From Dryocola sp. LX212 (GTDB lineage: Bacteria > Pseudomonadota > Gammaproteobacteria > Enterobacterales > Enterobacteriaceae), in assembly GCA_041504365.1 (NCBI GenBank), contig CP167917.1, positions 3,162,001-3,226,000 of the forward strand: a stretch of 64,000 bases of DNA, given 5' to 3'. Positions 5,584 to 45,044 of the stretch are shown in pieces (within the stretch, counting starts at the first letter, position 1; every line of letters begins with the position of its first letter). The position numbers were made by a program, and so were the translations under genes. Below the pieces are notes generated by a model. That model saw nothing but the letters and a program-made list of their open reading frames with translations. It did no database searches and had not been told where the DNA came from.

Positions 5584-6234
5584 ATGAACAGTATGAACGT
5601 AATTATTGCCGACGACCATCCGATTGTCCTGTTCGGCATTCGTAAATCACTCGAGCAGATCGAGTGGGTGAATGTTGTCGGTGAGTTTGAAGATTCCACA
5701 GCACTTATCAATAACTTACCAAAATTAGACGCGCACGTGCTCATTACCGATCTCTCCATGCCTGGAGATAAATACGGCGATGGCATCACGCTGATTAAAT
5801 ACATCAAGCGTCACTTCCCATCAATTTCCATCATTGTGCTAACGATGAACAATAACCCGGCGATTCTAAGCGCCGTGCTGGATCTGGATATCGAAGGGAT
5901 TGTGCTGAAGCAAGGCGCACCAACCGATCTGCCTAAAGCGCTGGCCGCTCTGCAGAAAGGCAAGAAATTCACGCCGGAGAGCGTCTCCCGCCTGCTGGAG
6001 AAAATCAGCGCTGGCGGTTACGGCGACAAGCGTCTGTCGCCTAAAGAGAGCGAAGTGCTGCGCCTGTTCGCGGAGGGTTTCCTGGTCACAGAGATTGCCC
6101 GTAAGCTGAACCGCAGTATCAAAACCATCAGTAGTCAGAAAAAGTCAGCGATGATGAAACTGGGCGTTGAGAACGATATTGCCCTGCTGAACTATCTCTC
6201 CTCGGTAAGCCTGTCTCCGGCTGACAAAGACTAA
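5584..6234 (+). CDS. rcsB: Response regulator RcsB
   Basis: DNA-binding regulator of capsule, motility and envelope genes, acting as a homodimer or with RcsA and other partners. 216 residues, as in E. coli. The receiver domain has the acidic pair D10/D11, the phosphoacceptor D56 (LITDLSMPG) and K109 (LKQGAP). A LuxR-type helix-turn-helix spans about 150-205 (LSPKESEVLRLFAEGFLVTEIA). The start at 5584 gives MNSMNVIIADDHP, matching the family; an upstream in-frame extension to 5503 overlaps rcsD and is rejected. It is probably transcribed with rcsD, and in E. coli also from a promoter inside rcsD. Confidence 0.98.
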   Translation: MNSMNVIIADDHPIVLFGIRKSLEQIEWVNVVGEFEDSTALINNLPKLDAHVLITDLSMPGDKYGDGITLIKYIKRHFPSISIIVLTMNNNPAILSAVLDLDIEGIVLKQGAPTDLPKALAALQKGKKFTPESVSRLLEKISAGGYGDKRLSPKESEVLRLFAEGFLVTEIARKLNRSIKTISSQKKSAMMKLGVENDIALLNYLSSVSLSPADKD

Positions 6235-6243
6235 CTTCTTCTG

Positions 6244-6270
6244 AGCCCCCTCTCCCGGGGGCTGTTTCTT
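6244..6270 (+). terminator. rcsB terminator
   Basis: Stem AGCCCCC/GGGGGCT (6244-6250, 6257-6263) with a 6-base loop, followed by GTTTCTT, starting 9 bases after the rcsB stop codon. Confidence 0.8.
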
Positions 6271-6820
6271 ATATGGCGGCGATTTAAGCCCGACCCAACA
6301 TCCTCGCGTCAACTTCTATGAATGGCCCATCTCCGGCGTCGCTGTAGGTTTCAAAGCGATGCGTTTTCCGAAGTTATTTCTGGCTTAAAGCGACACCCTG
6401 TTCCCGGCTTAAATCGCTCCGGTTTTTGCCCTTCAGGCAGGGTCACGTTGTCGGGAACAACGTGAGAGAGCGATCGTCGGACAAAATAGTGAAGCATTTT
6501 GAACAACGCTTGCGTTGGCCACGAAGTGGTTCGGCACAAAGTGCCGAATAAACGAATCGCGAACGACCCTGCATGTTGGGTTAAAACCGGAGTTTACCGC
6601 TTCAGCGGCGATTTATTTGCCGGGCGCCGGGGTCGTCAGGGGGATGGCGTAATCCCCATGACACGTTCACCGTTAACAACGGTTACAGAGATAAACAGAC
6701 GTTAAGGTGAACGGAATGGCAACGGAGATATCAGAGTTCACTCTGACTGATTGCCAGAGTGAGTTGTGACTAAGAGACAACTCCTGCGGGAGGGGAAGCC
6801 TTTGGCTTTACATCCCGCGC
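6271..6820. repeat. Hairpin-dense non-coding stretch between rcsB and rcsC
   Basis: 550 bases without a convincing gene. Consecutive short palindromes run through 6441-6746: TCACGTTGT/ACAACGTGA (6443-6465), CAAAAT/ATTTTG (6482-6501), CAACG/CGTTG (6504-6517), CCAC/GTGG (6519-6529), TTCGGCAC/GTGCCGAA (6530-6548), CCGC/GCGG (6597-6608), GGGGAT/ATCCCC (6640-6657), ACCGTT/AACGGT (6669-6683), TCAGAG/CTCTGA (6731-6746). Next to the rcsC stop, a nested hairpin (GCGGGA outer, AAGCC inner, about 6787-6818) may end rcsC transcription. An inverted match, CCCAACAT (about 6293) against ATGTTGGG (about 6573), brackets part of it. Origin unknown; it looks like an inserted structured repeat. Confidence 0.6.
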
Positions 6821-9670
6821 TTATACTCTTCCGCTTCTTACCCGCGCCGCATAGACCGCCAGCGTCTGCTTAATCACGTCCAGCGTCACCGGTTTCGACA
6901 GGCAGCTGTCCATGCCCGATTCAATACAGCGCTGTTTTTCTTCGGCAAGGGCGTTCGCCGTCACGCCGATCACCGGCAGCGTCAGGCCCAGCTGACGAAT
7001 ACGTTGCGTCAGGCGATAGCCATCCATGTTTGGCATGTTCACATCGCTCAGCACGATATCAATATGGTTTTTGCTCAGCACGTTGAGCGCATCCACCCCG
7101 TCATTGGCCGTCTTACACTGGTAGCCCAGCGATCCCAGCTGATCCGCAAGCAGGCGGCGATTTATCGGATGATCGTCAACCACGAGGATCATCATGTCGT
7201 CGTTCTGCTCGTTGATCTGCGCCGGAGACGGCAGCGCGGAGGGGCTACCAGGCACGTCAACATCAATACTGTAGATACGGCCCAGTAGCGTCAGTAGATC
7301 GTGGGGCGCCGCCACGCTGTGTACCCAGCAGCCCGGCGACTGCTCCTGAGGAATGCCGATGTGGCGACGGCAGAAGATAATCGCCGCACGCCCTGACCAT
7401 GGCGTTTCCAGCGCGTCGTCGGTGATCAGTACGTCGTCACTGCCGGGCGTCTCCCCGCTGTAAATGCCGGTTTGAATGTTATTCATGGACAGCAGCGATT
7501 CCAGATAGCCGCTTAAAGAGGCATTTCTGACCGCCAGCCAGCAGCGCTTCTTAGCCAGTCCGTCAACCTGCGCGTGCGGAGCAGCCACGGCTGAATAAAG
7601 CGGTATACGGATTGTGAACTGGCTGCCCATCCCCGCTTCGGTATCAACCGAGATATCGCCGTCCATCATGCTGATAAGTTTTTCGCAAATAGCCAGGCCC
7701 AGCCCGGTCCCCTGGAAGTTACGCTGCACCCCGGTACCCACCTGGAAGAACGGATCGAACAGACGCGTCACTTCTTTGCCCGGTATCCCAACGCCGGTAT
7801 CCCGCACCCGGAAGCTCAGGTAATCCCCGGTTACCGACACGTGCAGAATAATACAGCCTACATCCGTGAACTTAATGGCGTTGCTCAGCAGGTTAGAGAT
7901 CACCTGCTGCAGACGCATCGGATCGCCCTGCAGCGTCAGCGGCACGTCCGGCTCGATGAAACAGTAAAGCCCCAGCTGCTTGCGCACCACCAGCGGCAGA
8001 TAGTTGGCGGTGATGTGGCTCATCACTTCACGCGGTGAGAACTCGCGCGGTTCAATCTTCAGCTGTTCGGATTCAATTTTCGAGAAGTCCAGAATGTCGC
8101 TGATGATTTTCAGCAGCAGGCTGGAGGAGTTGTTCATCGCCGTCACCAGGCGATCCACCCCTTTCGGCAGCGCTTTGGTTTGCAGCAGATCCAGGTTACC
8201 GATGATGCCGTAGAGCGGCGTGCGCAGCTCATGGCTGACGGTAGCAAGGAACATGGATTTGGACTGGCTCGCCTGTTCGGATGCCTGCGCCATCTCCTGC
8301 AATGACTCTTCCATCTTCACTCGCGCGCTGACGTCTACCAGCACACAAATCGCTACGTTTTCATTGCGATAGCGTGAATGCACGAAGCTTATTTGCAGGT
8401 TGGTGTGATTGCTGGTCAGCACGTCGACAAAATTAACCTGCTGGCCACAGATGATTTTGGTGAGCTGCTGCCGGTCTTCATGGGTCAGCATGTTCAGGTA
8501 GTTGTGGGCGAGCTCGTTACTCAGAATATTCGTGCCGTCCTGGGTGCGCAGGATACAGATACCTACCGGCGCCGAGGCAACAATTTTGCGGTTGAACTGC
8601 TCGTGCTCTTCCAGACGCTGGGCGTCGTTTTCCGCCGGGATAAATATCCTTCGCTCATACATGCGCGCAAGCGTAAACAGCGCGCCCCCCACCAGCACAT
8701 TCAGCAGCACCGCATTGAGTATCAGCATGCGGATGCGTTCAAGCACGGTATCAACCGGCACGGAATAGATAACGCTCAGGGACGACGGCGGCAGGTTCTT
8801 CTTCAGCACCAGCTGCTTAAAGCCTGACGAGTAGCCAAACCAGTTGCGCTCCTGCACCCAAGGCGCCTGGGGCTCGATGCTGGTCTCCGAGCCGGTCAGG
8901 GAGATCAACGGATGGTTATTCTCATCGAGAATGGTAACGCCCACCGGCAGCGTGCCCGGCGTCAGGAAGTTTTCCATGCGCACCGTCTGTTCGATGCCAA
9001 GCAGTGCCTGCAGGCGGTTTGCCAGATAAACGGGGGTTAAAGTATAGAAGTATCCGATGCCCGGACGCGGCCCCTGGCCAATCCAGTAAATGCTGTTGCC
9101 GCGCTCGTCCTGCGGCGCGCTGCGATATTTCATGATCCGTTCGTGCAGCGTTTTCAACGCCTTTTCGCGCTCAAGAGGCATGTTTCTGAGGCCAAAGTCC
9201 GCTATACAAAGGTTCTCGCCGCCGATCAGGAACACGCGATTCAGGTCGTAGGCGGCAGAGAAGTTATCGCGCCAGTAGCGCAGAAACCAGGAGAGCGACT
9301 GCAGGGAGCTGCGCCAGGATGTGCTCACCGCCGAGCAGTCGGAATCGGGAAACAGCGGCATAAAATCAGGGGCTTCGATTTTGCTTTCGTCCCGCTCGAT
9401 AGTCGGTAGCACGCCGTTGGTCGCCGTAAGGCGGTTTTCCGCGATGTACTTCAGCTCTTTCATGACGTCCGACGTGCGCTGGATGTAGCGCTGGGCCTGA
9501 TCGAAACTGGTGTTTAGCTCCTGACGAATATCTGACTCTTTTTCATGCAGCGCATTAACGATATAGAAGACGGAAAAAAGAGCGATCAGCAGCCACAGCA
9601 AAAGTGCCAGCGCCCTGAAAAGATAGCGGGAGATCTTAAGCGTACTGCGGAAAGAGACGAGATATTTCAA
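6821..9670 (-). CDS. rcsC: Hybrid sensor histidine kinase RcsC
   Basis: Inner-membrane hybrid kinase/phosphatase that feeds phosphate through RcsD to RcsB, 949 residues, the same length as in E. coli. It has a transmembrane segment at about 20-40, a periplasmic domain, a second membrane segment at about 313-335, and a PAS-like linker. The H-box is FLATVSHELRTPL (His about 479). The ATP-binding N, G1 and G2 boxes (LLSNAIKFTD, DTGVGIP, GTGLGLAI) follow, then an RcsC-specific ABL-like domain and a C-terminal receiver with VLSDVNMPNMDGY (Asp about 875). It is convergent with rcsB, the usual arrangement. Divergence from E. coli is concentrated in the linker before the receiver. Confidence 0.98.
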   Translation of the reverse strand: MKYLVSFRSTLKISRYLFRALALLLWLLIALFSVFYIVNALHEKESDIRQELNTSFDQAQRYIQRTSDVMKELKYIAENRLTATNGVLPTIERDESKIEAPDFMPLFPDSDCSAVSTSWRSSLQSLSWFLRYWRDNFSAAYDLNRVFLIGGENLCIADFGLRNMPLEREKALKTLHERIMKYRSAPQDERGNSIYWIGQGPRPGIGYFYTLTPVYLANRLQALLGIEQTVRMENFLTPGTLPVGVTILDENNHPLISLTGSETSIEPQAPWVQERNWFGYSSGFKQLVLKKNLPPSSLSVIYSVPVDTVLERIRMLILNAVLLNVLVGGALFTLARMYERRIFIPAENDAQRLEEHEQFNRKIVASAPVGICILRTQDGTNILSNELAHNYLNMLTHEDRQQLTKIICGQQVNFVDVLTSNHTNLQISFVHSRYRNENVAICVLVDVSARVKMEESLQEMAQASEQASQSKSMFLATVSHELRTPLYGIIGNLDLLQTKALPKGVDRLVTAMNNSSSLLLKIISDILDFSKIESEQLKIEPREFSPREVMSHITANYLPLVVRKQLGLYCFIEPDVPLTLQGDPMRLQQVISNLLSNAIKFTDVGCIILHVSVTGDYLSFRVRDTGVGIPGKEVTRLFDPFFQVGTGVQRNFQGTGLGLAICEKLISMMDGDISVDTEAGMGSQFTIRIPLYSAVAAPHAQVDGLAKKRCWLAVRNASLSGYLESLLSMNNIQTGIYSGETPGSDDVLITDDALETPWSGRAAIIFCRRHIGIPQEQSPGCWVHSVAAPHDLLTLLGRIYSIDVDVPGSPSALPSPAQINEQNDDMMILVVDDHPINRRLLADQLGSLGYQCKTANDGVDALNVLSKNHIDIVLSDVNMPNMDGYRLTQRIRQLGLTLPVIGVTANALAEEKQRCIESGMDSCLSKPVTLDVIKQTLAVYAARVRSGRV

Positions 9671-44954: not shown

Positions 44955-45044
44955 AGTCAGCATGCTTCCAGTTGGCCTGAGTAACCTCAGGCGTTAATCA
45001 AAAATTCTTGTGCAATTCCTCGCGGCAAGCCGCAGGGAAAAATA

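Follow-up and report, generated by a model that had tools for sequence, protein, structure and literature searches.

A hairpin array between rcsB and rcsC in Dryocola sp. LX212 is very probably a non-autonomous Tn5/IS50-type transposable element

The spacer between the convergent genes rcsB and rcsC of Dryocola sp. LX212 is filled by a dense array of hairpins, which we interpret, with a probability of about 0.9, as a non-autonomous transposable element (MITE) of the Tn5/IS50 type that was inserted at the apex of a terminator-like hairpin. The array has dispersed copies in the genome and ends of the Tn5 type; a direct repeat flanks it, and in a sister species the corresponding site carries a hairpin without interruption. 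The mechanism class of such an element is known already; its interior is an unusual hairpin array. The window analysed here is a stretch of 64,000 nucleotides (contig CP167917.1, positions 3,162,001 to 3,226,000), and an initial annotation made from its sequence alone had offered a structured mobile repeat, a decayed prophage fragment or a structured RNA as explanations for the array.

Hairpin content of the rcsB–rcsC spacer

The gap extends from the end of the rcsB ORF at 6234 to the 3′ end of the rcsC ORF at 6821, both gene names being those assigned in the initial annotation. Under a rule of stems of at least 5 and loops of 3–9, we identified seven non-overlapping perfect hairpins in 6262–6780, six of which had stems of at least 6. 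Dinucleotide shuffles of the same stretch (n=300) yielded means of 2.9 hairpins and 0.75 hairpins with such a stem; seven hairpins were reached in 9 shuffles and six stems of at least 6 in none. Of 249 further windows of 519 bp elsewhere in the 64 kb, ten reached seven hairpins, two the summed stem length and none the six longer stems. The excess of hairpins is therefore real, although the seven-hairpin count is less extreme than the six stems of at least 6. Folding z-scores were −6.9 for DNA, −7.1 for RNA of the + strand and −7.95 for RNA of the − strand, with equal stability in 0 of 100 shuffles each. At least nine palindromes had been reported for 6271–6820; the number depends on definition, our rule giving eight, and relative to the element that range starts 9 bases late and ends 40 bases too far. 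The inverted pair said to bracket part of the run does exist in the window copy (CCCAACAT at 6294–6301, ATGTTGGG at 6573–6580), but its left member reads CCCAACAC in both sister copies aligned, and we rejected a functional bracket in favour of probable chance.

Copies, ends and boundaries of the element

Copies of the stretch were found at 11 loci of the LX212 genome (27 and 26 partial matches, grouped by us). Their occurrence at unrelated loci with sharp ends, and for the window copy the flanking direct repeat and the empty site of a sister species, support the proposal of a structured mobile repeat. The longest copies, of ~710 bp (e.g. L021:1501–2210), comprise two inverted halves, with between-half self-matches of 68–76 % identity. 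By longest-ORF calls on unannotated sequence, 6 of the 11 copies are flanked by convergent ORFs and 5 by ORFs of one direction, one of the latter having only an 85-aa ORF as its neighbour. Matches to the element were found in three of six genomes of the genus, LX212 included, and in 42 of 392 genomes of a family sample in which at most two candidate places were scored per genome, many of them through short core-only matches.

Full copies terminate, with some variation, in CTGTCTCTTAGTCACAACTC (end A) and CTGTCTCTTATACAGATCT (end B). Common to both ends, in inverted orientation, is CTGTCTCTTA, end B being reduced to 13 bases in the window copy. This terminal sequence matches the ends of Tn5/IS50-type insertion sequences, those of Tn5 being named OE and IE, and the same end type is present on elements with PF14706 (Tn5-type DNA-binding domain) genes in other enterobacteria. 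A PF14706 search of the LX212 genome detected no Tn5-type transposase domain, and the longest stop-to-stop frames (window copy, 80 aa; L021, 94 aa) indicate by their length that no transposase gene is carried. The exact 19 bases of end A occurred in five stretches among 84,980 genomes, a set from which the genus itself is possibly left out: three, accompanied by a related core, in a Buttiauxella agrestis record, plus a single stretch from Zobellella maritima and another from an Oceanisphaera, both of which have a different interior. The two latter loci (L195:6260–6615 and L198 from 5688, respectively) combine the same Tn5-type end with another hairpin-rich interior; by eye, L195 and the Yersinia RU-2 repeat, as printed in PMC2759123, have GCGCCA.GGATGGCGCGG and TTTACGGCGT in common.

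Ten anchors from the LX212 genome were used to find sites in five congeners, and the element was absent at rcsB–rcsC in all five. In the sister species G002, the left-flank and right-flank matches share exactly 10 bases, CTCCTGCGGG, which form the apex of an uninterrupted terminator-like CCCTCTCC-TGC-GGGAGAGGG hairpin. This sequence, single in the empty site, flanks the window element as a 10-bp direct repeat with 8/10 identity, and because CTCCCGGGGG and CTCCTGCGGG stand on either side, we delimited the insert as given in Table 1. Across copies the repeat measured 8–11 bp by best overlap and was 9/9 in L090, L099 and, with an offset of one, L197; perfect direct repeats were found in only two to three copies elsewhere. 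The element thus has the characters of a MITE, namely many unrelated loci, terminal inverted repeats, an (imperfect) target-site duplication and no encoded transposase.

The window copy lacks ~260 bp of the adjoining half, immediately behind the 13-base remnant of end B. The alignment program put these 13 bases opposite the interior; we assigned them to end B because they stand directly behind the left direct repeat. Their derivation from an ordinary rcsB tail was considered and rejected, as the G002 site continues differently. The ~70-bp stretch of small hairpins is set into one core hairpin and is also present in L051, in diverged form in L062 and cut short in L002.

Table 1. Positions of the element, its parts and its flanks in the window
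Feature	Position	Strand	Basis
Whole element, 519 bp; very probably an internally deleted copy of a ~710-bp Tn5/IS50-type MITE	6262..6780		11 genome loci; flanks join precisely in sister species G002
Left flanking direct repeat CTCCCGGGGG, two differences from right copy	6252..6261	+	Empty site in L147; letters checked
Right flanking direct repeat CTCCTGCGGG, identical to G002 empty site	6781..6790	+	Comparison with G002
End-B remnant CTGTTTCTTATAT, 12/13 bases as in L022	6262..6274	+	Position directly behind direct repeat; inspection of letters
End A, − strand reading TTGTCTCTTAGTCACAACTC, 19/20 bases as in L021	6761..6780	-	Sequence comparison
First 139 positions of remaining core half (TTCCGTTCACC, GTGAACG, covarying hairpin)	6577..6716	-	Match to model R1, 129 bits (own-genome copies are among the relatives of the sequences used to build R1)
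~70 bp with several small hairpins, not in L022 or L047 at that place	6481..6549	+	Alignment; letters
Terminator-like stem AGCCCCC-TCTCCC-GGGGGCT with tail GTTTCTTATA	6244..6273	+	Pattern scan; fold

Insertion sites and hairpin apices

We rejoined the flanks of 14 insertions with both ends placeable and ranked the stability of each rejoined site against nearby 44-base windows. The set comprised ten insertions of the window kind (six from LX212, one from G002, L063 and two from Buttiauxella), one from Zobellella and three coding IS; L002, L025, L026, L028 and L034 of LX212, in which an end was missing or degraded, were left out, as were L049, L196, L198 and IS loci with one end. The duplicate copy was removed before rejoining at 9 of the 14, and the flanks were joined whole at L022, L024, L063, L194 and L195, where none scored well enough. 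Eight of the 14 rejoined sites (5/10 of the window kind and 3/3 coding IS) fell within the most stable ~5 % of the neighbouring windows, which are mostly coding and in this respect unlike other spacers. Unusual stability was lacking at five sites, and one was borderline at 5.5 %. Our best reading is that the Tn5-type MITE often inserts at hairpin apices. A search of the window for the CCCTCTCC..GGAGAGGG hairpin pattern found none. In other enterobacteria, the coding Tn5-type IS at L090, L099 and L100 sit in hairpin apices with perfect 8–9 bp repeats.

Tn5 targets are described as often palindromic, and IS are on record as inserting into REP palindromes, in some cases at the hairpin's axis of symmetry (PMC1525189). 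The element resembles the Tn5/IS50 group (IS4 family) in its terminal CTGTCTCTTA and in palindromic insertion sites, and roughly in its direct repeats, which are ~9 bp in that group and measured 8–11 bp here; it differs in that it lacks a transposase gene and has an interior of ~710 bp filled with hairpins. According to the same source, the REP-targeting ISRm22 and ISPsy8 likewise insert into palindromic extragenic DNA, often between convergent genes and, for ISPsy8, at the symmetry axis; they carry transposase genes, however, whereas the targets seen here are terminator-like CCCTCTCC..GGAGAGGG hairpins. The RU-1 (127 bp), RU-2 (168 bp) and RU-3 (103 bp) repeats are also intergenic, non-coding, rich in stem-loops and MITE-like, yet shorter, with TA ends and TA duplications where the present element has other termini (PMC2759123). 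Membership of the ERIC or RU repeats, 103–168 bp long with TA ends in that paper, was accordingly rejected for an element of ~710 bp with CTGTCTCTTA ends.

Proposed course of the insertion and a putative terminator behind rcsB

Through two substitutions in the left repeat, a 7-bp terminator-like stem (Table 1) is built from the rcsB spacer, that repeat and the end of the element. A pattern scan rated this stem as a terminator, although it returned three sites in the region vs 1.0±1.1 in shuffles. The predicted stability of the stem behind rcsB is −15.4 kcal/mol, compared with −15.8 kcal/mol for the G002 hairpin; on the rcsC strand the predicted hairpin is much weaker, at −8.1 vs −20.1 kcal/mol in G002. 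Termination may have been kept after the insertion.

The following course of events would account for the present arrangement. A Tn5-type transposase supplied in trans would have recognised both CTGTCTCTTA ends and joined the element into the apex of the hairpin between rcsB and rcsC, duplicating ~9–10 bp. Its position in a spacer may have made the insertion tolerable, as may the terminator that the left duplicated bases and the T-rich end of the element would re-form behind rcsB. Some 260 bp would later have been lost from one half. The interior would derive from an older enterobacterial hairpin-array sequence, present as two diverged copies in inverted orientation; this sequence is also found without detectable Tn5 ends. 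Counting against the MITE reading are the 8/10 direct repeat and its variable length between copies, the five sites without an unusual hairpin, the failure to find an autonomous partner in the LX212 genome, an end-B remnant of only 13 bases and the weaker hairpin on the rcsC side.

Covariation and distribution of the core

The core of the element consists of two inverted, diverged halves bounded by TTCCGTTCACC...GGTGAACGGAA, and many enterobacterial genera contain halves delimited by TTCCGTTCACC...GGTGAACG, for the most part with no detectable Tn5 ends. In 33 halves, picked from 58 for diversity, the outer pair CGTTCAC/GTGAACG was identical throughout (7/7 pairs) and the next stem varied freely. 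Over the whole structure, 104 cells were changed on both sides and 97.1 % of 757 cells were paired, against 36–46 % in slid controls; the number of pair types was not above shuffles (104 of 500 reach it). The covariance analysis of aligned copies suggested in the initial annotation thus revealed strong covariation in the main stem. Its 12 covarying columns contained no G-U pair in 395 cells and no one-sided change, whereas 6S RNA given the same treatment displayed G-U in 32 of 286 cells and 26 one-sided changes, a yardstick rather than a proof, being drawn from 30 of 53 matches of 184 bases each across the order with the structure partly recovered (17 pairs). One predicted, non-covarying pair outside the 395 cells is G-U in 28 of the 33 halves, and we take it for a prediction artefact. 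The lack of G-U in the covarying columns suggests a DNA hairpin rather than an RNA, and the pattern fits constraint or correction acting on DNA, be it as a cruciform, as a single-strand hairpin or through template switching that perfects palindromes. Loops of the TTCCCGA or CATCCYTG type, on different stems, closed 25 of 100 perfect hairpins in 32 dereplicated halves vs 0.2 after shuffling, these motifs being a post hoc choice.

A core from another genus (L070) matched 5375 of 5426 E. coli genomes at a median of three places, 16944 of 16950 of which were chromosomal; none covered 80 % of the query, and no annotated feature underlay the 20 matches listed. A second core (L080) matched 4468 of the same 5426 genomes. 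In E. coli K-12, the yegH–asmA gap (L117:1515–1655) contains a core half and no annotated feature. A search of E. coli with the window's own gap sequence gave no match at E 1e-5; the link to E. coli therefore passes through other genera. No plasmid match was found for the rcsB–rcsC gap, and the four of 72,556 records in the plasmid search that matched a related core were all E. coli, of 1.4–4.9 Mb, and taken to be chromosomes. A covariance model of the 33 halves gave 18 matches in the LX212 genome and matched 13 of 197 genomes of the order, seven belonging to this family and six, more weakly, to two others. Tandem core halves were observed in L073 (G016; four starts ~640–710 bp apart) and L058 (G075; two copies 844 bp apart), and G550:C1:2190025-2198529, from another family of the order, displayed seven weak model matches in a row ~1 kb apart, their kinship being uncertain. 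Among the matches listed from open-licence literature, we recognised no description of the element or of the core.

Alternative explanations

Two further origins named in the initial annotation were weighed against these data. A structured RNA of the rcsB–rcsC region, either an sRNA or a 3′ UTR element, would agree with the strong folding on both strands and with the covariation of the core, but the sequence is absent at this place in all five congeners, no Rfam family reached its gathering score in 6100–6900, and the covarying columns are free of the G-U pairs that 6S RNA accumulates; we therefore rejected this explanation as very unlikely. At a lax threshold, Rfam matches to the region were at chance level and below gathering score (best E 0.053), and those to the related loci L072 (naRNA4) and L080 (TwoAYGGAY) went down to E 0.0001, likewise below gathering score. 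The only matches in the window at gathering score were MicF RNA (2373–2465, + strand) and the nuoG leader (44965–45007, − strand). Even less probable, and likewise rejected, is a remnant of a P4-like or other prophage: neither the gap nor a related core matched any of 50,697 phage records at E 1e-5, and seven ORFs located within or next to core copies in other genomes hit no family, phage families included. P4 was examined because the initial annotation had named P4-like prophage genes, and a faint echo is what remains of that lead. Model R1 gave four faint matches on phage P4 (E 0.017–0.13), three of them on ori and crr, but the strongest lay outside both. The type I iterons of P4, sites of binding by P4 alpha, are inverted pairs set 43 bp apart start to start, with TGTTCACC/GGTGAACA in ori and TGTTCACC/GGTGAATA in both crr copies, and a 43-bp pair was also present at 5 of 15 loci with P4-alpha-like genes. 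The invariant GTTCACC/GGTGAAC pair of the core resembles this inverted GTTCACC/GGTGAA motif pair, in resemblance only, yet the core has CGTTCACC with GGTGAACG at 40–42 bp (30 of 33 halves), and GGTGAACG was found in none of the 15 P4-like loci.

A question of a different kind is whether the core (TTCCGTTCACC...GGTGAACGGAA) is itself a mobile unit with its own mode of spread, to which Tn5-type ends were added later in a few lineages. We regard this as possible, though somewhat doubtful. Cores without detectable Tn5 ends are present in LX212 itself (L025), in other genera and in E. coli, several copies per genome occur in g20 and g151, and the copies in L058 and L073 are in tandem; neither an empty site nor a direct repeat was seen for a bare core, however, its missing ends could reflect decay, and the rcsB–rcsC junctions fall at the Tn5-type ends and not at the core. 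A joint reading, which we consider unlikely, would make the core a hitherto undescribed DNA element of enterobacteria that acts as single-stranded or cruciform DNA and is present in almost every E. coli genome examined. The GTTCACC/GGTGAAC pair would then be a putative site for a P4-alpha-like replication protein, hairpins with conserved loops would be processed as DNA, and copying would proceed via satellite replication machinery; in this genus and Buttiauxella the core would have become freely mobile via acquired Tn5-type ends that deliver it to hairpin apices.

Implications

Read as a Tn5/IS50-type MITE, the array illustrates how the terminator shared by a major stress-signalling gene pair can accommodate a large palindromic insert: with insertion at the apex, the duplicated target bases and the T-rich end supplied by the element could together re-form a terminator. 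The analysis also brings to light a repeat family with matches in almost every E. coli genome examined; its main stem varies through Watson–Crick exchanges only, and a DNA-level role of its hairpin arrays can be tested.
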